From Gammaproteobacteria bacterium (GTDB lineage: Bacteria; Pseudomonadota; Gammaproteobacteria; Burkholderiales; Gallionellaceae): DNA of 64,000 nt. The notes under the pieces are model-generated. The model had not been told where the DNA came from, made no database searches, and worked only from the letters and a program-made list of their open reading frames with translations. This document shows, one piece after another, positions 47,598-63,933 of this stretch. The stretch's first letter is position 1; each line of letters begins with the position of its first letter. Made by a program: the position numbers and the translations under genes. Where the stretch lies: NCBI GenBank assembly GCA_018813765.1, contig JAHJBC010000006.1, positions 434,001 to 498,000 of the forward strand. The letters run 5' to 3'.

Positions 47598-49220
47598 ATG
47601 ATCGAAGACATCAAGAAAACCCTGTGGGCAGCCGCCGACAAGTTGCGCGCCAACACCGATGCCGCCGAATACAAACACCTCGTGCTCGGCCTGATCTTCG
47701 TCAAATACATCTCCGACACCTTCGCCGCCCGCCGTGCCGAGCTGGGCCGCCGCTTTGCCGATCCCAAGGACGACTATTACCTGGACGATGCCGGGCTGGT
47801 CGCCGCCGAGCTGGAAGACCGCGACTACTACAAGGAAGTGAACGTATTCTGGGTGCCCGAAAGCGCGCGCTGGGAAGCCATCCGCGCCGCCGCCAAGCAG
47901 CCGGACATCGGCAAGCGCATCGACGATGCGCTCTCCGTCATCGAAGCGGAAAACCCCAAGCTCAAAAACATCCTCGACAAACGCTTTGGCCGCGCGCCGC
48001 TGCCCGACGGCAAACTGGGCGAACTGGTCGATCTCATCTCCACCATCGGCTTCGGCGACGATCCCGGCCAGGCGCGCGATGTGCTGGGGCAGGTGTACGA
48101 ATACTTCCTCGGCATGTTCGCCAGCGCCGAAGGCAAGCGCGGCGGCCAGTTCTACACCCCCGCCAGCATCGTCAAAACGTTGGTCGCCGTGCTCGCGCCG
48201 CATCACGGCAAAGTGTACGACCCCTGCTGCGGGTCCGGCGGCATGTTCGTCCAGTCGGAAAAATTCATCGAATCGCACGGCGGCAAACTGGGCGACGTCG
48301 CCATCTTCGGGCAGGAATCCAACCCCACCACCTGGCGCCTGGCCGCGATGAACCTCGCCATTCGCGGCATCGACTTCAACTTGGGCCGCGAACCGGGCGA
48401 CACCTTCACCAAAAACCAGCACCCCGACCTGCGCGCCGACTTCATCCTCGCCAACCCGCCGTTCAATATCAGCGACTGGTGGCACGGCAGCCTCACCGGC
48501 GATCCGCGCTGGGTCTATGGCGACCCGCCCCAAGGCAACGCCAACTACGCCTGGCTGCAACACATGCTCTACCACCTCAAGCCCACGGGGCGAGCAGGTA
48601 TCGTGCTGGCGAACGGCTCCATGAGCTCCAGCCAGAACAGCGAAGGCGACATCCGCCGCGCCATGGTCGAAGCCGACGTGGTGGAAGTCATGATCGCGCT
48701 GCCCGGCCAACTCTTCTTCAACACCCAAATCCCCGCCTGCCTGTGGTTCCTCCGTAAGCCCCCCTCGCCCGCAAGCGGGAGAGGGGCTGGGGGTGAGGGT
48801 AAAACGAGACAAGGCGAAGTCCTCTTCATCGACGCCCGCAAACTCGGCACCATGATCAGCCGCGTGCAAACCGAATTCACCGATGAAGTGATCGACCGCA
48901 TTGCTGCAACGGTTGCTGCATGGCGCGGCGAACCCTCCCCTCTCCCGCAAGCGGGAGAGGGGCCGGGGGTGAGGGTTAGTAGCGACTACGCCGACATCCC
49001 CGGCTACTGCCGCAGCGTCAAACTCGCAGAAATCGCCGAACACGGCCACGTCCTCACCCCCGGCCGCTACGTCGGCGCAGAAGCAGTGGAAGACGACGAC
49101 GAAGCCTTCGCCGACAAAATGCAAACCCTCACCGAAAAACTGGGCGAGCAAATGGCGAAAGGAACGGAACTCGATCAGTTGATCCGGCAGAAGCTGGGAG
49201 GGCTGGGGTATGACTTCTGA
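47598..49220 (+). CDS. hsdM: type I restriction-modification system, methyltransferase subunit
   Basis: HsdM methylates adenine with the specificity subunit. The 540-residue product has a helical N-terminal domain, the SAM-binding motif DPCCGSGGMF (about 208-217) and catalytic NPPFN (286-290). Two in-frame REP insertions encode Pro/Gly-rich inserts at about residues 388-401 and 447-460, after the catalytic core. I chose the ATG giving MIEDIKK; the stop overlaps hsdS by 11 bp. The locus order is hsdM, hsdS, TA pair, AlbA_2 gene, hsdR. Confidence 0.93.
   Translation: MIEDIKKTLWAAADKLRANTDAAEYKHLVLGLIFVKYISDTFAARRAELGRRFADPKDDYYLDDAGLVAAELEDRDYYKEVNVFWVPESARWEAIRAAAKQPDIGKRIDDALSVIEAENPKLKNILDKRFGRAPLPDGKLGELVDLISTIGFGDDPGQARDVLGQVYEYFLGMFASAEGKRGGQFYTPASIVKTLVAVLAPHHGKVYDPCCGSGGMFVQSEKFIESHGGKLGDVAIFGQESNPTTWRLAAMNLAIRGIDFNLGREPGDTFTKNQHPDLRADFILANPPFNISDWWHGSLTGDPRWVYGDPPQGNANYAWLQHMLYHLKPTGRAGIVLANGSMSSSQNSEGDIRRAMVEADVVEVMIALPGQLFFNTQIPACLWFLRKPPSPASGRGAGGEGKTRQGEVLFIDARKLGTMISRVQTEFTDEVIDRIAATVAAWRGEPSPLPQAGEGPGVRVSSDYADIPGYCRSVKLAEIAEHGHVLTPGRYVGAEAVEDDDEAFADKMQTLTEKLGEQMAKGTELDQLIRQKLGGLGYDF
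48761..48800. repeat. REP-like palindrome inside hsdM (copy 1)
   Basis: The unit reads CCCCTCGCCCGCAAGCGGGA then GAGGGGCTGGGGGTGAGGG, and is translated in frame as PSPASGRGAGGEG-type sequence. It matches the hsdM second copy and the doublet at 29546-29660 in design. Confidence 0.88.
48937..48975. repeat. REP-like palindrome inside hsdM (copy 2)
   Basis: CCCCTCTCCCGCAAGCGGGA followed by GAGGGGCCGGGGGTGAGGG sits about 176 bp after the first copy. It is read in frame in another phase, giving SPLPQAGEGPGVRV. Confidence 0.88.
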
Positions 49221-50550
49221 AGTCCGGCGAATTGTAAAACTTGCCGCATGTGCATCCTTTCAAGAAGGCTACGTTAATCCGTCGCAGAGAGACCCCGGTT
49301 ATTTCGGTGACGACTACAAGTGGTTGCGAGCAACAGATTTGAATGATGGCTTTGTGTTTAATACAAGTCGAGGGTTGTCCGCCAAAGGGTTCGCAAGTGC
49401 AGGGAAAAGTGCACTGTTGTTTGCGCCAAATACTTTGGCAATTAGCAAGTCAGGAACAATCGGGCGTGTAGGGATACTTAAAGATTACATGTGCGGCAAT
49501 CGTGCGGTCATCAACATTAAGGTCAATCCAGATTGCGATACGCGCTTCATTTTTTACACGCTCCTTTTGAATCGGCAAAAAATTGAATCTCTTGCCGAAG
49601 GAAGTGTTCAGAAGAATCTCTACGTGTCATCACTTGGGAGACTTGAGTTTGAATTGCCAAGCCTCCCAGAGCAGGTGCGTATTTCAGAAACAATTGGTGC
49701 ACTCGACGACCGCATCGCCCTCCTGCGCGAAACCAATGCCACACTGGAAGCCATTGCACAGGCGATGTTCAAATCGTGGTTTGTCGATTTCGATCCCGTC
49801 CACGCCAAACAACAAGGCCGCGCCCCCGAAGGCATGAGCGAAGCCACCGCCGCGCTCTTCCCCGACAGCTTCGAGGAGTCGGAACTGGGCTTGGTGCCGA
49901 GGGGGTGGAAGGTTAGTCGAGTGGAAGATGTAGCGATTAAGGTTGGCATGGGTCCCTTTGGGTCCAACATCAAAGTCTCGACTTTTGTAGAGCAAGGCGT
50001 TCCCGTGATAAGTGGCCAACATCTGCGAGGTACACTAATGGAAGATTTATCTTTCAATTTTGTAACCGAGGCTCACGCCGAAAGATTGAAGAACTCGTGC
50101 GTTGGCGCAGGAGACGTGGTTTTTACACATGCAGGGAATATTGGTCAGGTGTCACTCATTCACAGTGACGCATTGTTCGATAAGTATGTTCTTTCTCAAC
50201 GCCAATTTTTCCTGCGTTGCAATAAAGAAATAATGTATCCGGAGTGGATAACGTATTTCTTTAGATCGCCCTTAGGCCAGCATTTGTTACTAGCGAATGC
50301 CTCTCAAGTTGGGGTGCCATCCATAGCGCGGCCAGTGACTTATTTGAGGTCAATTCAGTTTGTGTTGCCTCCAATTAATCTACTTCGGCACTTTGCTGAG
50401 ATTGCAGATTCACTGCATCGTCAGGCTATTGCTAATAGGTCACGAATTCAAACCCTCGCCACCCTCCGCGACACGCTGCTCCCCCGCCTGATCTCCGGCC
50501 AACTGCGCCTGCCGCAAGCCGAGGCAGCGCTGGAAGCGGTGACGGAATAA
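49210..50550 (+). CDS. hsdS: type I restriction-modification system, specificity subunit
   Basis: HsdS supplies the two target-recognition domains. The 446-residue product has two diverged TRDs separated by conserved helical repeats (LPEQVRISETIGALDDRIAL, about 157-176, then AIAQAMFKSWFVDFDPVHAK, about 186-205, and LRHFAEIADSL later). Base composition is lower in GC than neighbouring genes within both TRDs, typical of horizontally exchanged modules. The target sequence cannot be deduced. Confidence 0.92.
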   Translation: MTSEVRRIVKLAACASFQEGYVNPSQRDPGYFGDDYKWLRATDLNDGFVFNTSRGLSAKGFASAGKSALLFAPNTLAISKSGTIGRVGILKDYMCGNRAVINIKVNPDCDTRFIFYTLLLNRQKIESLAEGSVQKNLYVSSLGRLEFELPSLPEQVRISETIGALDDRIALLRETNATLEAIAQAMFKSWFVDFDPVHAKQQGRAPEGMSEATAALFPDSFEESELGLVPRGWKVSRVEDVAIKVGMGPFGSNIKVSTFVEQGVPVISGQHLRGTLMEDLSFNFVTEAHAERLKNSCVGAGDVVFTHAGNIGQVSLIHSDALFDKYVLSQRQFFLRCNKEIMYPEWITYFFRSPLGQHLLLANASQVGVPSIARPVTYLRSIQFVLPPINLLRHFAEIADSLHRQAIANRSRIQTLATLRDTLLPRLISGQLRLPQAEAALEAVTE

Positions 50551-50674
50551 TTGCGCCGCTCATTGCGCGCCGTTGCCTGATGGGCTACAAACTAACCCGA
50601 CCTGCGAAACTGGATAAGGCTGCTGGCCACGAGTAGAATCCAAACCCGTTAAACGCCTTGGGAGGGTATCCGCT

Positions 50675-50920
50675 ATGAATCAAGTCATCACTTTGCCGCA
50701 GTCTATGCTCGAGCGCCTGGACAAAGTGGCGCAGGGGTCGCACATGAAGCCCGAGGCGATCATCAAGCAAGCCGTTGCAGATCGCCTGGACTATGAGGAG
50801 TGGTTGCTTGAGCAGGTGGATGCGGGGCTGGCAGAGATAAAAGCGGGCAAGGGTATTCCGCATACTGAGTTTATGAAGCGGGTGGGAGCTTCGCCGAATG
50901 CCCGAAAAAAAGCAGCTTGA
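50675..50920 (+). CDS. CopG-like ribbon-helix-helix antitoxin
   Basis: The 81-residue protein opens with an RHH strand-helix (VITLPQSMLERLDKVAQGS) and ends with a basic tail. The start follows GGGAGGGT. It overlaps the ParE-like toxin gene by 23 bp, a coupling typical of type II toxin-antitoxin operons. It should repress its own promoter. Confidence 0.85.
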   Translation: MNQVITLPQSMLERLDKVAQGSHMKPEAIIKQAVADRLDYEEWLLEQVDAGLAEIKAGKGIPHTEFMKRVGASPNARKKAA

Positions 50921-51179
50921 GTGGTCGCCCAGATCGCAAGTGAATGTAGAGCGCATTCGCGCCTATATTGCTGCGGACAACCCCAAAGCCGCCCAGGATG
51001 TTGTTGATGAAATCGTGATATCTGCCGCTGGATTGAGGGATTTCCCGCTACTCGGCAAGCCTTGGAAGCGCAAATCGCGCAAACTCGTTTTAACAAAATT
51101 CCCGTTCGTCCTCATATATAAACTGACGCCTTCGAAGGTGGTTGTGCTGGCTGTGGCGCATCACAGAATGAAAGCGTGA
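50898..51179 (+). CDS. ParE/RelE-family toxin
   Basis: The 93-residue protein matches the ParE/RelE fold with QVNVERIRAYIAADNPKAAQ (about 14-33), DFPLLGKPWKRKSRKLVLTK (about 47-66) and a final strand with AVAHHRMKA. ParE-type toxins act on DNA gyrase, RelE types cleave mRNA; the short loop sequence fits ParE better. It lies within the restriction locus, between hsdS and the AlbA_2 gene. Confidence 0.85.
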   Translation: MPEKKQLEWSPRSQVNVERIRAYIAADNPKAAQDVVDEIVISAAGLRDFPLLGKPWKRKSRKLVLTKFPFVLIYKLTPSKVVVLAVAHHRMKA

Positions 51180-51423
51180 CCTCTTCATGCCATTCGTCCG
51201 GGGTATTAAAGATTGCTTTAATATCCCGTCGCTCTATTAAAGAGTTGTTTAATACCGTGCGGGTTACGGCTGCGCTTAACTCGACCTGCGAAAAGCGTAT
51301 GAACGGGCGTGTATCATTTCTGCCGTTCTGCCGTTTTCTACACACGTTGCACCGAAACTCGTATGGCAATTGGTCAGCAAGCTGCTGACCAATTGCTTTG
51401 GTCACTTATCAGGAGAGCTGCTG

Positions 51424-52959
51424 ATGTTTGATTTGCAATCACTCGATGATCTGTCACGGCTTTCTGAATCGCTGGATTTGGAATGCAAGTTGGCACAGGG
51501 GCTGGATGGCAAAGGGGCGGTTCCCAAGGAGTTTTGGCCTACCTATTCAGCAATGGCGAATGCTCATGGCGGGGTGGTGTTGCTGGGTGTGCGTGAGAAG
51601 GACGGTGCATTTAGCATTGCAGGGCTGGAAACCCCTGTAAAGGTTCGTGGCGACTTATTCAATACGCTTAACAATCGGGCTAAGGTGAGCGTCAATTTGC
51701 TTACGGATGAGAATGTGATCGAGGCCCAGGTTGAGGGCAAAACGATATTAGTGGTAAGCATCCCCGCTGCTACACGCAAGCAAAAGCCGGTATTCCTGAA
51801 TGGGCAGCCGCTGGGCAATACTTATCGTCGTCTGCATGATGGTGACCGCCGCTGCGATGATGATACGGTGAAGCGGATGTTGGCGGAGCAGTTGGAAGAC
51901 AGCCGCGATAATTACATTCTGAATAAGTTTGGCATGCAGGATATTGAGTTGGAAAGCTTGCGCGCTTACCGCAATGCGTTTGCGGTGCACCGTCCCAGCC
52001 ATCCGTGGGTTGATGTGGGCGATGTTGATTTTTTGCGATTGATAGGCGGTTGGCGTGAGGAGCGGGATTCCGGGGTCGCCGGACTGACGGCTGCCGGGTT
52101 GTTGATGTTTGGGAAATGGTCTTCTATCGCCGAGGCTTTTCCGCTGTATTTTCTCGATTATCAGGAACGGTCAAATGACCCGGATTCACAGACGCGCTGG
52201 CTGGATCGTATCGTTCCAGACGGTTCATGGTCGGGTAATTTGTACGATTTCTTCCGCCGCGTCATTCGCAAGCTGACGGCTGATTTGAAAGTGCCGTTTG
52301 TGTTGAAGGGCGAGTCGCGCATCGACGATACGCCTACGCACCAAGCTTTGCGCGAGGCGTTGGTGAATTGCCTGATTCATGCGGATTACACAGGCCGGGC
52401 GTCGTTGTTGGTGGTCAAACAGCCGACGGGATTTTTGTTCCGCAATCCGGGTGTGTTGCGTGTACCTGCCGCAATGGCGTTGCAGGGCGGCGCGAGTGAT
52501 TGCCGCAACCGCACCTTGCATCAGATGTTTTTGTTCATCAATTTGGGCGAGCGAGCGGGGTCTGGGTTGCCGAAAATTATTGCCGGTTGGAAGGGCGAAG
52601 GGCATTCAATAAGCTTGGCCGATTCGTTTGAGCCGTTTGATCAAACCGTGTTGGAAATGAATTGGAGCGAATCTTCCTTGGCAATTTCCTCCGCAACATC
52701 GGCAGGAAGTTCACCGATAAGTTCACCGATAAGTTCACCGATAAGTTCACCGATAAGTTCACCGATAAGTTCACTAAAGACCGAGGAGCGAATTATTCAG
52801 CGATTGCGTGATGATCCAAAATGCTCCGCCCAGCAGTTGGGCGATGCGCTGGGGATTAGCAAGCGTGCTGTGCTGAAGCAGATAGAGAAGCTCAAGCAGC
52901 AAGGGCGTTTGTCACGTATTGGTTCAGCCAAGGGCGGGCACTGGGAAATATTGAAATGA
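51424..52959 (+). CDS. AlbA_2-domain (RecG-like/Schlafen-type) protein with SPIS repeats
   Basis: The 511-residue protein has an N-terminal AlbA_2 domain ([20 protein letters not shown] through [11 protein letters not shown]) and a central region typical of RecG-like ATP-binding proteins with [12 protein letters not shown] (about 315-326). A C-terminal winged-helix segment ([20 protein letters not shown]) follows a tandem SPIS-repeat linker from a 12-bp VNTR. Such proteins often sit in type I loci and may regulate them or act in defence; no precise role is known. The stop overlaps hsdR by 4 bp (ATGA). Confidence 0.85.
52708..52774 (+). repeat. 12-bp tandem repeat in the AlbA_2 gene
   Basis: Five full units and part of a sixth of AGTTCACCGATA are perfect. 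Each unit adds four residues, so copy number can vary without frameshift, making this a likely hypervariable linker. Confidence 0.92.
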
Positions 52960-55900
52960 CCGAAGACCAACTTGAACAGGAAGCATTAGGCTGGCTGACC
53001 GAGGTTGGTTATTCCACTTTGTATGGTCCCGACATTGCGGTGGATGGCGATGCACCCGAGCGTAGCGATTACCGGCAGGTGGTGCTGGTGGAGCGGTTGC
53101 GTGCGGCGGTGGAGCGGCTGAACCCGGCGATTCCGGCGGCTGTGCGCGAGGATGCGATCAAGCAGGTGGTTGATCTGGGCACGCCGGTGCTGCTCTCGGC
53201 CAACAAGCGTTTGCATCAATTGTTAGTGGGTGGTGTGCCGGTGCAGTATCAGAAGGGGAACGAGACGCGCGGGGATTTTGTGCGGTTGGTGGATTGGGAA
53301 TCTTTCTCCGGCCATCTCACAGAAGGCGAGCGCGGAACAAGCTTAAACCCCCTCCAACTCCCCCTTGTCAGGGGGAGAGCCGAGCCCGCTCCTCCCCTGA
53401 CAAGGGGAGGTTGGGAGGGGTTGGGTTCTAATGGTTTATCCGGCCTAAACGAATTCCTCGCCATCAACCAGTTCTCGATCAAAGGCGCACACCACACGCG
53501 CCGACCGGACATCATCCTGTTCGTGAACGGTTTGCCGCTGGTGTTGCTGGAACTAAAAAATCCCGCCGACGAAAACGCCGACATCTGGAAAGCCTACGAC
53601 CAGATTCAAACCTACAAAGAGCAGATTCCCGATGTGTTCCAGTACAACGAGGTGCTGGTGATTTCGGACGGCAGCGAGGCGCGGCTGGGTTCGTTGTCGA
53701 GCGATGCCGAGCGCTTTATGCAGTGGCGCACGATTGACGGGGTGATGCTCGATCCTCTGGGGCAATTCAACGAGCTGGAGACGATGATACGCGGCGTGCT
53801 GGCTCCGGCCTATCTGCTCGATTACCTGCGTTACTTTGTGTTGTTCGAGGATGATGGTGCGCTGGTGAAAAAGGTGGCCGGGTATCACCAGTTCCATGCG
53901 GTACGCGCGGCGATCAACCAGGTGGTGGTGGCATCGCGCCCCGGCGGCACGCACAAGGGCGGCGTGGTGTGGCATACGCAGGGCAGCGGCAAGAGCATTA
54001 CCATGACGTGCTTTGCCGCGCGCGTGATGCAGGAGGTGGCGATGGAAAACCCGACCATCGTGGTGATCACCGACCGCAACGATCTCGACGGGCAGTTGTT
54101 CGGGGTGTTTTCGCTGGCGCAGGATTTGTTGCGCGAGCAGCCGGTGCAGGCGGATACACGGCAAGACCTGCGCGCGAAATTGTCCAACCGTCCATCGGGC
54201 GGCATTGTGTTCGCCACCATTCAGAAGTTCATGCCGGGCGAGGATGAAGATACCTTTCCGGTGCTTTCCGACCGCAGCAATATTGTGGTGATCGCCGACG
54301 AGGCGCACCGCACGCAATACGGGTTTGAGGCGAAACTCAAAACCTATAAATCTCCCGTAGGTCGGGTTAGCGATAGCGTAACCCGACAACCTGCCGATGA
54401 AGTGTCGGGTTACGCTGCGCTAACCCGACCTACACATAGTTTCGCGGCTGAAGATGCTGCGGGGATGATGCGCTATCAGGTCGGCTACGCGCAGCACCTG
54501 CGCGACGCATTGCCCAACGCCACCTTTGTCGCCTTCACCGGCACGCCGGTATCCAGTGAGGACCGCGATACCCGCGCCGTGTTTGGTGAATACATCCACG
54601 TTTACGATATGCAGCAGGCCAGGGAAGACGGCGCGACGGTCGCCATCTACTTCGAGTCGCGGCTGGCCAAGTTGTCGTTGAAGGCGGATGAACTCTCGCA
54701 GATCGACGATGAGGTGGACGAGCTGGCCGAGGATGAAGAAGAAAGCCAGCAGGCCAAACTGAAGAGCCGCTGGGCCGCATTGGAAAAAGTGGTGGGGGCG
54801 GAGCCGCGCATTGCGAGTGTGGCGGCCGACCTGGTGGCGCACTTCGAGGAACGCAGCAAAGCGCAGACCGGCAAGGCGATGGTGGTGGCGATGAGCCGCG
54901 AGATTTGCGTCCATTTGTACAACGAGATCATCAAGCTGCGCCCGGCCTGGCACGATGCCGATCCCGAAAAAGGCGCGATCAAGATTGTGATGACGGGCTC
55001 GGCCAGCGACAAGGCGCTGCTGCGTCCGCACATCTATAGCTCGCAAGTGAAGAAACGGCTGGAGAAGCGCTTTAAAGACCCGGCTGATCCGATGCGCCTG
55101 GTGATCGTGCGCGATATGTGGCTGACCGGATTCGACGCGCCGTGCGTGCATACCCTGTATGTGGACAAGCCGATGAAGGGGCATAACCTGATGCAGGCGA
55201 TTGCGCGGGTGAATCGCGTGTTCAAGGACAAGCAGGGCGGGCTGGTGGTGGACTACATCGGCATCGCCAACGAGTTGCGCAGCGCGTTGAAGGAATACAC
55301 CAACAGCAACGGGCGCGGCAGGCCCACGGTGGATGCGGCGGAAGCCTATGCCGTGCTGGAAGAGAAATTGGACATCCTGCGCGGTTTGCTGCACGGCTAC
55401 GATTACAGCGACTACCTTACCGCAAGCCACAAACGGCTGGCGGGTGCGGCCAACCATGTGCTGGGCGAGAAGGATGGCAAGAAACGTTTTGCCGATACCG
55501 CGCTGGCGATGAGCAAGGCGTTTACGCTGTGCTGCACGCTGGATGAAGCCAAGGCGGTGCGCGAAGAAGTGGCGTTTTACCAAGCGGTGAAAGTCATCCT
55601 GACCAAGCGCGACATCAGCCAGCAAAAGAAGACCAACGAGGAGCGCGAACTGGCGATCCGGCAGATCATCGGCTCGGCGGTGGTGTCGGAAGAGGTGGTG
55701 GATATTTTTGATGCGGTGGGTCTGGAAAAGCCGAACATCGGCATCCTGGACGATGCCTTCCTTGCCGAGGTGCGCAACCTGCCGGAGAAGAATCTGGCGG
55801 TGGAATTGTTGGAGCGCTTGCTGCAAGGAGAGATCAAGACGCGCTTTGCGGGCAATATCGTGCAGGACAAAAAGTTCTCTGATCTGCTCTCGGATGTGAT

Positions 55901-56288
55901 CAAGCGTTATCAGAACCGCGCCATCGAAACCGCGCAGGTGATCGAAGAACTGATCGGCATGGCCAAGAAGTTTCGCGAGGCGGCTAATCGTGGTGTTGCG
56001 CTGGGCTTGAATGATGATGAGGTGCGCTTTTATGATGCGCTGGCCGACAACGAATCTGCCGTGCGCGAACTATCCGATGAAACGCTGAAGAAGATCGCCC
56101 ATGAACTCACGGAGAGCCTGCGCCAGAACCTGACCGTGGATTGGTCTGCGCGGGAAAACGTGCGCGCCAAGTTGCGGCTGATGGTGAAGCGCATCCTGCG
56201 CAAATACAAATATCCGCCGGATCAACAGGAAGTGGCAATTGAGCTGGTGTTGCAACAGGCGCAGGCGCTGGGAGAGGCTTGGGCGTAA
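52956..56288 (+). CDS. hsdR: type I restriction-modification system, endonuclease subunit
   Basis: HsdR translocates and cleaves unmethylated DNA. The 1,110-residue product has a PD-ExK nuclease with [20 protein letters not shown] (about 181-200), a Walker A motif [11 protein letters not shown] (about 338-348), the DEAH box ([10 protein letters not shown], about 447-456), FTGTP and a helicase C-terminal motif with AIARVNR. Two in-frame REPIN insertions occur, at about residues 131-156 and 468-493; the second lies between the DEAH box and the FTGTP motif. Both keep the frame open, so the protein is probably still made; activity is uncertain. Confidence 0.9.
53346..53422. repeat. 77-bp REPIN inside hsdR (copy 1)
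   Basis: Two inverted arms, AACCCCCTCCAACTCCCCCT (53346 onward) and its near-complement ending at 53422, carry CTCCCCCT-TGTC-AGGGGGAG-type hairpins. The unit is translated as [20 protein letters not shown] and onward. The element differs in sequence from the hsdM REPs and from the second hsdR element. Confidence 0.88.
54357..54433. repeat. 77-bp REPIN inside hsdR (copy 2), GTAG-headed
   Basis: The element begins GTAGGTCGGGTTAGCG and ends with the inverse, CTAACCCGACCTAC. Each arm has a GTCGGGTTA/TAACCCGAC stem. The 5' GTAG tetranucleotide is the known recognition head of RAYT-associated REPs. It is read in frame through the helicase region of hsdR. Confidence 0.9.
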
Positions 56289-63081: not shown

Positions 63082-63933
63082 ATGTCCAGGCCACTGCGAA
63101 TCGAATTTGCCGGTGCTCTCTACCACGTCACCTCACGCGGTGACGGGCAGGAGGATATTTATCTGGATGACAATGATCGGGAGCTATTCCTTGAGGTACT
63201 CGAAAATGTCGGCGAACGGTTCAACTGGACACCTCATGCCTTCTGCCTGATGGGCAACCACTACCACCTGCTCCTGGAAACGCCCGACGGCAACCTCGCC
63301 AAGGGCATGCGCCACCTCAACGGCGTCTACACCCAGCGCTTCAACCGCAAACACAAACGCGTAGGGCACGTCTTTCAGGGGCGCTACAAAGCCATCATCG
63401 TACAAAAGCAAACCTACCTGCTTGAACTCGCCCGCTACATCGTCCTCAACCCCGTGCGTGCGCGCATGGTACGCAGCGCCAAAGACTGGCCGTGGAGCAG
63501 CTACCGAACCACCGCTGGCATGGCAGATACCCCGCCATGGCTAACCACCGACTGGATACTTTCATCCTTCTCAGACAAACGCGGCGAAGCCATCGAGCGC
63601 TACAAGACATTCGTCGCCGAAGGAAAAAACCAGCCCGCCCTGTGGGAACAACTCAAAAACCAAATCTACCTCGGCACCGACGCGTTCGTGGCAATAATGC
63701 AAGCCAGGAAACCGGTCAAGGAAGACCTGAGTGAAATCCCGCTGGGGCAAAGACGAACCATGGCAAAACCGTTGGAGCATTATGCCGAGTGCGGCGGCAC
63801 AAGAGACGAAGCCATCGTCAATGCCTACGACAGCGGCGCATACGGACTGAAAGAAATCGGCGACCACTTCGGATTGCACTACTCCAGAGTAAGCCGAATA
63901 ATCGCCAGCCAGCGCAAGGCCAAAGAAGGCTGA
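63082..63933 (+). CDS. REP-associated tyrosine transposase (RAYT, TnpA_REP)
   Basis: RAYTs are single-copy HUH-type relatives of IS200 transposases that mobilise REP/REPIN sequences. The 283-residue product has the N-terminal MSRPLRIEFAGALYHVTSRG, the HUH-like HYH in MGNHYHLLLE (about 57-66), and the RARMVRSAKDWPWSSYR region (about 125-142) with the candidate catalytic Tyr. A C-terminal helix-turn-helix (GLKEIGDHFGLHYSRVSRII) follows. REP-type palindromes elsewhere in the window, including the GTAG-headed element in hsdR, are candidate substrates; which family it acts on is unknown. Confidence 0.93.
   Translation: MSRPLRIEFAGALYHVTSRGDGQEDIYLDDNDRELFLEVLENVGERFNWTPHAFCLMGNHYHLLLETPDGNLAKGMRHLNGVYTQRFNRKHKRVGHVFQGRYKAIIVQKQTYLLELARYIVLNPVRARMVRSAKDWPWSSYRTTAGMADTPPWLTTDWILSSFSDKRGEAIERYKTFVAEGKNQPALWEQLKNQIYLGTDAFVAIMQARKPVKEDLSEIPLGQRRTMAKPLEHYAECGGTRDEAIVNAYDSGAYGLKEIGDHFGLHYSRVSRIIASQRKAKEG

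Follow-up and report, generated by a model that had tools for sequence, protein, structure and literature searches.

Palindromes inside a type I restriction locus

The DNA studied here is a 64,000-nt window (the whole stretch analysed) of contig JAHJBC010000006.1, from a member of the Gallionellaceae. It carries a type I restriction-modification (R-M) locus in which four palindromic inserts, E1 to E4, lie inside open reading frames (ORFs), two in the methylase gene hsdM and two in the restriction gene hsdR (Table 1). All four keep the reading frame open, and they lengthen their host genes by about 33 to 123 nt. The original prediction, made from the letters of the window, described two 39-bp palindromes in hsdM and two 77-bp palindromes in hsdR, all preserving the frame, with E4 dividing HsdR between its DEAH and FTGTP motifs. 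The sequence and the Pfam names of the genes confirmed both statements. No A, B or C palindrome was found in hsdS by pattern searches. Other stretches of DNA and other genomes are cited, where needed, by analysis label (L### and G###).

Table 1. Positions of the host genes, inserts and other features in the 64,000-nt window
Feature	Position	Strand	Family or Pfam match	Description
hsdM	47598-49220	+	N6_Mtase 3.4e-102, HsdM_N 2.6e-21	Type I R-M methylase; host of E1 and E2
E1	48761-48799	-	A1	Solo palindrome, 39 bp, in open hsdM frame; imperfect hairpin; peptide PPSPASGRGAGGEG
E2	48937-48975	-	A1	Second palindrome, 39 bp, in open hsdM frame; perfect hairpin 48937-48962; peptide SPLPQAGEGPGVR
hsdS	49210-50550	+	Methylase_S 4.8e-22
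hsdR	52956-56288	+	HSDR_N, SWI2_SNF2, T1RH-like_C	Type I restriction subunit; host of E3 and E4
E3	53346-53422	+	B	Inverted pair of palindromes, 77 bp, in open hsdR frame; hairpins 53358-53377 and 53391-53410
E4	54357-54433	+	C	GTAG-headed REPIN, 77 bp, in open hsdR frame; hairpins 54361-54387 and 54404-54429
RAYT-like gene	63082-63933	+	Y1_Tnp	Between its own short inverted repeats, GGTCTTGCCTTTTGCC and GGCAAAAGGCAAGACC
Small gene pair	50675-51179			Between hsdS and hsdR; two genes resembling a CopG/ParE-type toxin-antitoxin pair by eye
Schlafen-type gene	51370-52959		Schlafen/AlbA_2 domain	12-bp in-frame tandem repeat at 52707-52786, encoding SSPI units

The inserts fall into three families: A, the E1 and E2 type (A1, with a sister family, A2), B, the E3 type, and C, the GTAG type of E4. 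E1 contains the exact A1 23-mer, CCCTCACCCCCAGCCCCTCTCCC, on the minus strand at 48777-48799. Although E1 and E2 belong to one family, they are translated in two different frames, as SPASGRGAGGEG and SPLPQAGEGPGVR. The earlier naming of all four as repetitive extragenic palindromes (REPs) and REP doublets forming hairpins (REPINs) holds for E4, which alone has a GTAG-headed hairpin in an inverted pair, with GTAGGTCGGGTTAGCG at both outer ends, and is a REPIN of the type linked to REP-associated tyrosine transposases (RAYTs). It does not extend to E1, E2 and E3, whose heads are CCCTCACCCC.. and CCCCTCCC.. without GTAG, and in whose sequences we found no CGTC. By sequence, families A and B instead resemble the palindromes that flank genes for DUF559, a Vsr-like nuclease domain, in several phyla.

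Both host genes are under purifying selection. Against four homologues each, the ratio of nonsynonymous to synonymous substitution rates (dN/dS) was 0.09-0.14 for hsdM and 0.06-0.10 for hsdR, and pseudogene decay was therefore rejected. The overall range of 0.06-0.14 agrees with the expectation that selection preserves the frame and that the genes are constrained. In AlphaFold models the inserts lie in or overlap segments with a predicted local distance difference test score (pLDDT) under 50, residues 393-401 and 452-461 of HsdM (540-residue numbering) and residues 118-162 (E3) and 453-509 (E4) of HsdR.

Insertion sites in relatives

E1 adds a net 36 nt compared with all seven HsdM homologues aligned; two further homologues outside that alignment (L005 and L028) have inserts of their own in the E1 loop. 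The E2 loop is about 33 to 39 nt longer than in two relatives without the repeat (4 of 9 relatives extracted), and the E4 loop about 51 to 63 nt longer than in three relatives, a fourth having the same element (4 of 5 relatives extracted); both loops differ in length even without repeats. At E3, five of six relatives were aligned: three have an empty site (60 nt, against 183 in the window) and two carry other inserts. G020, whose HsdM is 91% identical to that of the window, has neither E1 nor E3, and its E2 site holds another repeat, translated RHSRESGNP. G012 has a GTAG REPIN at the E2 site and another insert at the E3 site, and the HsdR of Methylovulum carries a GTAG element of the E4 type at the E4 site. 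The prediction that the inserts occupy loops thus stands: the loops are shorter in most homologues, and the inserts lie in or overlap low-confidence segments of the models.

Repeat-like inserts of several families were also seen, by eye, in the E2 loop among 103 HsdM homologues from many phyla. For each site we ran a stem test on 34 of 104 loops, taking the longest. At the second site, the window's own loop reached p <= 0.03, as did those of 7 of 33 homologues, with about one expected by chance; these positives include one Planctomycetota and one Anaerolineae metagenome-assembled genome (MAG), and two of the loci, L007 and L008, are close relatives of each other. At the first site 2 of 33 did so, L005 and also L026, in which no repeat was visible by eye. 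The window's own E1 loop failed the test (p 0.17), and half-element loops (L147, L024, L028) and repeats of the ATTCCCGC type (L125, L132) stayed below its threshold. A1 itself occupies the E1 loop of HsdM in other genera (L334, L392, L423).

Sites elsewhere in the genome gave a similar picture. The insert sites of AcnA and MiaA are empty in five of five relatives, empty sites occur among relatives for MutL, RecJ and Mfd (G007 shares the insert in the last two), and they were seen in two relatives for a CobG/NirA-like gene. Relatives (G007, G014, G020) differ in the repeat-like inserts that occupy the CysS linker (L084). PolA was found in 32 of the genus's 34 genomes; of the 30 in which it was read, 15 have a repeat-derived linker (14 called by DNA and G005 by peptide only), and these are scattered over the PolA tree. 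As the inserts are patchy, belong to several unrelated families per site and are missing from near relatives, we rejected an ancestral protein domain in favour of repeated insertion.

Palindrome families in the genome and genus

In the 3.14-Mb genome, family A gave 38 matches compared with 4 for a reversed control pattern (<=3 mismatches) and family B gave 9 compared with 0, so chance palindromes were rejected for both. Family C gave 13 matches and its control 9 (<=2 mismatches); because the control was nearly as frequent once mismatches were allowed, we restricted the family C count to 7 exact 16-mers, which head GTAG hairpins in the copies displayed.

All six exact A1 copies of the genome lie within ORFs: two in hsdM and one each in AcnA, PolA, Mfd and an ORF without a family match (L092). 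Near-exact copies lie within RecJ, MutL, MiaA and others, a family B palindrome lies in MutS, and CysS is a further gene with in-frame palindromes. The focus of the original prediction on restriction genes was therefore too narrow, since PolA, Mfd, RecJ, MutL, MutS, AcnA, CysS and MiaA are hosts as well. The likeness it drew to Rickettsia elements, as in-frame palindromes in unrelated proteins, gained from the same hosts.

Across the genus, the exact A1 23-mer occurs 38 times in 16 of 34 genomes. Of the 32 copies outside the window's own genome, 24 lie inside ORFs and 4 between genes, 3 are close to a start, and the ORF around the last (L195) is short and doubtful. Genes were called with a home-made codon score trained on the window, which picked the wrong strand at L253 (RecJ); it accounts for 23 of the 24 ORF-internal copies, and the RecJ copy of G007 was assigned separately. 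Eight of 18 host gene families of exact A1 belong, by our own grouping, to repair, replication or restriction, and p-values for enrichment by host function were computed on assumed background fractions of 1, 5 and 6%. AcnA, PurL, EarP and MetG are also among the hosts.

The sister family A2 has 96 exact copies, spread over 12 of the 34 genomes. Outside the window's own genome, 24 of the 26 loci examined are intergenic and 2 are near a start; within it all 12 of 12 are intergenic. Many A2 copies (L222-L251) lie 19-50 nt from the adjoining gene, often just 3' of it and in one orientation, like a 3'-end element.

A1 beyond the genus

The A1 23-mer was found in 21 of 370 genomes of the class, with 99 copies in total, of which the window's own genome has 6. 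Of 28 non-own copies that were classified, 15 lie in ORFs and 13 are intergenic. Six A1-rich genomes supplied 39 stretches around A1, with 15 copies in ORFs and 36 in intergenic DNA; 4 of these 36 are already among the 28. We had considered that A1 is targeted to genes and A2 to the spaces between them. This was dropped, as A1-rich genomes hold A1 mostly intergenically (36/51). The survival of old in-frame copies is the simpler reading: such copies may persist for longer than those between genes, and this would account for the mainly genic A1 of low-copy genomes.

The pattern search is blind to gene function, and outside the genus its ORF-internal hosts are biased: 17 of 22 are R-M or DNA-methylase genes. 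They encode HsdM (L323, L334, L392, L423), HsdR (L324), HsdS (L332, L423), a type I methylase (L328), N6_N4 methylases (L325, L333, L335, L422), MmeI/Eco57I-like enzymes (L339, L344, L403), a type ISP enzyme (L404) and a DUF1156 protein (L405), which we take to be a methylase, the other 16 being assigned by Pfam names. The remaining five are a nonribosomal peptide synthetase, a tetratricopeptide repeat protein, an SNF2 helicase, Cmr2 and one without a Pfam match. A1 precedes the first Pfam domain in L325 and L333, and dropping both leaves 15 of 20. Copies close to an ORF end were excluded (L201, L209, L216, L343, L401, L405:2431, L399, L419), and six of the stretches (L335, L347, L405, L422, L423, L424) come from one genome, G179. 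Among these, a Mod-type methylase frame (L422, 2194-3942) holds three A1 copies in one ORF, and a Cmr2/Cas10 frame (L424, 1439-4546) holds two in-frame copies.

DUF559 genes and their flanking palindromes

Two of the A1 hosts, the HsdS of L332 and the Mod-type methylase of L335, carry a DUF559 domain adjoining A1. Both are palindrome-DUF559-palindrome cassettes in frame within the host gene. The type I operon of L423 has A1 at the E1 loop of HsdM and two DUF559 cassettes, one at the E2 loop and one in HsdS; the latter, like that of L332, sits at the central WF(V/I)DF region. A scan of 2.58 Mb of loci revealed a DUF559 cassette in the HsdR of a Lentisphaerae MAG (L178), which had been chosen for its HsdM and not for a palindrome. 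In the window's genus, L227, chosen for A2, has a free-standing DUF559 gene preceded by A1-like and A2 palindromes.

We then assembled DUF559 loci fetched by protein only, 12 from viral contigs and 17 from plasmids, with 46 other genes of the same loci as controls. The plasmid loci are 17 of 43 records. Among the viral hits, L355 was left out as a presumed duplicate of L354, and L362-L368 because they were weak and short. A perfect hairpin with a polypyrimidine 5' arm lay within 350 nt of 24 of 29 DUF559 genes and of 11 of 46 controls (Fisher p 8.8e-7). Near relatives were then collapsed by hand: each plasmid genus was represented by a single locus, except that both Pseudanabaena loci stayed in, and of two viral loci sharing a palindrome one was dropped. 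After this, 18 of 23 had the hairpin (p 2.3e-5). DUF559 genes on plasmids are associated with such hairpins (16/17, against 3/27 controls, p 3.6e-8). The loci span several phyla, and matching palindromes often lie on both sides of the gene.

Palindromes with the head and arm of family A or B bracket the DUF559 gene, heads outward, at 5 of 29 loci (L353, L374, L375, L378, L382) and at 0 of 46 controls (p 0.007). In L374, a cyanobacterial cassette within an Eco57I-type methylase gene beside brxC, the exact A1 23-mer lies on both sides of DUF559. Three of the five, L375, L378 and L382, are B-type brackets in Deinococcus, and the layout of E3 resembles the ends of these units. On the Deinococcus plasmids L375 and L378, from two species, the B-flanked DUF559 gene sits at different places of an hpa catabolic operon, which suggests that the gene and its palindromes are mobile.

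A solved relative of DUF559, 3hrl, is named endonuclease-like. Caulobacter VsrA, a Vsr-like DUF559 protein, causes an SOS response when cells lack the methylase ScmA, according to the available part of its description (PMC12907096). Among the papers listed from the Creative Commons-licensed PubMed Central literature, none was seen to link DUF559 with palindromes; PMC8861277 contains both terms.

RAYT-like genes

The window's own RAYT-like gene has a truncated second copy just upstream, and no A, B or C palindrome was seen beside it. Mobilisation of families A and B by this gene was rejected on that ground and on the lack of such hairpins. Four of the five Y1_Tnp matches in the genome were tested, the fifth (L064) being a sub-threshold fragment beside L061. 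At these four loci A and C motifs are absent, save that L063 has an A-type hairpin motif at a distance of about 1.5 kb from its gene, and none of the four has a polypyrimidine hairpin within 350 nt.

Discussion

In-frame, translated palindromes, many of them in repair genes, are already known (Di Nocera et al. 2013, PMC3733652). Apparently new are the bias towards R-M hosts, the recurrence at HsdM loops across phyla and the DUF559 partner. The likeness of families A and B to palindromes flanking DUF559 genes suggests a type of mobile element, not described before, with restriction and DNA-repair genes as its insertion sites. We give a probability of about one half to the reading that E1 to E4 are mobile palindromes inserted into exposed, disordered loops of a type I restriction system that still works, E1, E2 and E3 being drawn from a DUF559-linked class. 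The broader proposal is more tentative. It holds that a cross-phylum class of elements, each a DUF559 gene between C-rich palindromes, inserts in frame into R-M, BREX, CRISPR and DNA-repair genes. E1 to E3 would be its translated footprints, and it would form a second REP system beside that of the RAYTs, with a homing-like choice of target.

The mechanism we envisage has E1, E2 (family A) and E3 (family B) as members of this second class, each with a C-rich head and a hairpin whose 5' arm is polypyrimidine. Palindromes of this class are found on both sides of genes for the Vsr-like PD-(D/E)XK nuclease DUF559. A palindrome-DUF559-palindrome unit would be autonomous, and solo or paired palindromes would be non-autonomous copies or remnants. 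Such units would be found preferentially in R-M, other defence and DNA-repair genes. The nuclease would bind the hairpins and nick or cut the target, and the palindrome would be copied in, as is thought to happen when TnpA-REP acts on REPs. That DUF559 mobilises the palindromes is a prediction from their association. Inserts would be kept where the change in length is a multiple of three and no stop arises, with selection removing frame-breaking copies. Short Gly/Pro/Ser-rich peptides are predicted to be translated from the inserts, and we expect these peptides to be made.

Several observations weigh against this interpretation. Low model confidence at the inserts owes partly to the few aligned rows there. 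L332, L335, L227 and L423 came to light through their palindromes, and the orientation of the palindromes varies, the A copies being reversed in L332 and in the HsdS of L423. The 39 A1-centred stretches and one A2 stretch contained just two DUF559 matches, both in L423, so most of the A1 copies examined have no DUF559 near them. No DUF559 was found in the window or in 233 kb of stretches from its own genome, the rest of which was not searched for the domain. Five of the 29 DUF559 loci lack the hairpin, viral contigs taken separately gave no significant difference (8/12 against 8/19, p 0.27), and the head and arm of the A and B families of the window's own genome match just 7 of 29 DUF559 loci, compared with 2 of 46 controls (p 0.023). 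The hairpin criterion was sharpened after 17 of the 29 loci had been inspected; the 12 fetched after that inspection gave 11 of 12 against 3 of 20 controls (p 2.9e-5). The part of DUF559 in transposition is read from its association with palindromes, and DUF559 genes might instead insert into existing REPINs.

The original prediction stated that its reading would suffer if unrelated genera carried the same inserts or if frameshifted alleles were common. Inserts of the same family do occupy these HsdM loops in other genera and phyla, but the patchiness of the inserts favours repeated insertion. One frameshifted allele exists, the HsdM of L423, which is out of frame after its DUF559 cassette.

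The best-placed alternative, still unlikely, is that all four are ordinary REP or REPIN insertions mobilised by RAYTs, and that DUF559 genes ride along by inserting into REPINs, much as insertion sequence (IS) elements do. E4 is a GTAG REPIN, the genome has Y1_Tnp genes, IS elements that target REPs have reportedly been described (PMC1525189), and the orientation of A around DUF559 is not uniform. The lack of a GTAG end in families A and B and the absence of polypyrimidine hairpins within 350 nt of the RAYT-like loci tested (0/4) argue against it, as do the hairpins at 16 of 17 plasmid DUF559 loci compared with 3 of 27 controls, in several phyla and often with matching palindromes on both sides.

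It is less probable again that the inserts arrived with horizontally acquired R-M genes from palindrome-rich donors and that nothing is mobile in the genome now. R-M genes move horizontally, and A1 is low-copy here, with 6 exact copies all in ORFs, while being intergenic in 36 of 51 copies of A1-rich genomes. The Methylovulum HsdR, with the same type of GTAG element at the same site, also fits this history. However, the housekeeping genes AcnA, MiaA and MutL carry inserts missing in the relatives examined, and G020, for all the closeness of its HsdM, lacks E1 and has another repeat at E2.

We think it improbable that the inserts are adaptive and tune restriction or repair activity, in line with the mutator idea of the survey (PMC3733652). 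The bias towards repair and R-M genes (8/18 host families in the genus), with a similar bias in the accessible text of that survey, would suit such a role. Against it stand patchy presence, differing peptides and frames at one site, the low-confidence loops and the inserts in AcnA, PurL, EarP and MetG. Skipping or removal of the palindromes at the RNA or protein level is very improbable, for although the palindromes may form mRNA hairpins, the frame is kept, which bypassing does not require, no intein domain was among the Pfam matches of the hosts scanned, and the window inserts are too short for an intein or group I intron.

If DUF559 is indeed the partner, it would be the mobiliser of some palindromes, giving a role to a domain of unknown function, and it would explain why palindromes sit in restriction and repair genes. 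The linkers of restriction and repair proteins would then be under reshaping by a selfish element.

Relation to known systems

The closest published observations are the REPs of Di Nocera et al. (PMC3733652). In the portions of that paper available to us, in-frame REPs occupy ORFs in numerous species; many are in DNA repair or replication genes, and loops are suggested as their sites; recB is hit at about the same place in two Xanthomonas, REPs occur without a dedicated transposase, and the gathering of translated REPs in repair genes is left unexplained. Our palindromes share with those GTAG/CGTC intragenic REPs their in-frame position and their repair-gene hosts. They differ in that families A and B have neither end, and the same portions of the survey contain no R-M hosts and no DUF559 partner.

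Rickettsia palindromic elements are likewise translated in frame inside unrelated proteins, and they have other sequences. To our knowledge they have no nuclease-bearing unit. They are CGTC-ended according to the available text of the survey (PMC3733652), whereas E1 to E3 contain no CGTC. Caulobacter VsrA shares the DUF559 domain with our units; the available part of its description proposes a T:G mismatch repair nuclease and makes no mention of palindromes (PMC12907096).

The REPIN/RAYT (TnpA-REP) system has the same architecture of a head and a hairpin, in solo copies and inverted pairs, and E4 belongs to it. Families A and B, in contrast, lack GTAG and do not lie beside the RAYT-like genes tested in the window's own genome. 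A further comparison is with inteins and with homing endonucleases of the Vsr-like (EDxHD) type, for example I-Bth0305I (PMC6083498, PMC3943268). The likeness lies in the Vsr-like nuclease and, for inteins, in the DNA-metabolism hosts. Here, however, there is no intron or intein; the ends are palindromic, and the cassette is read as part of the frame of its host.

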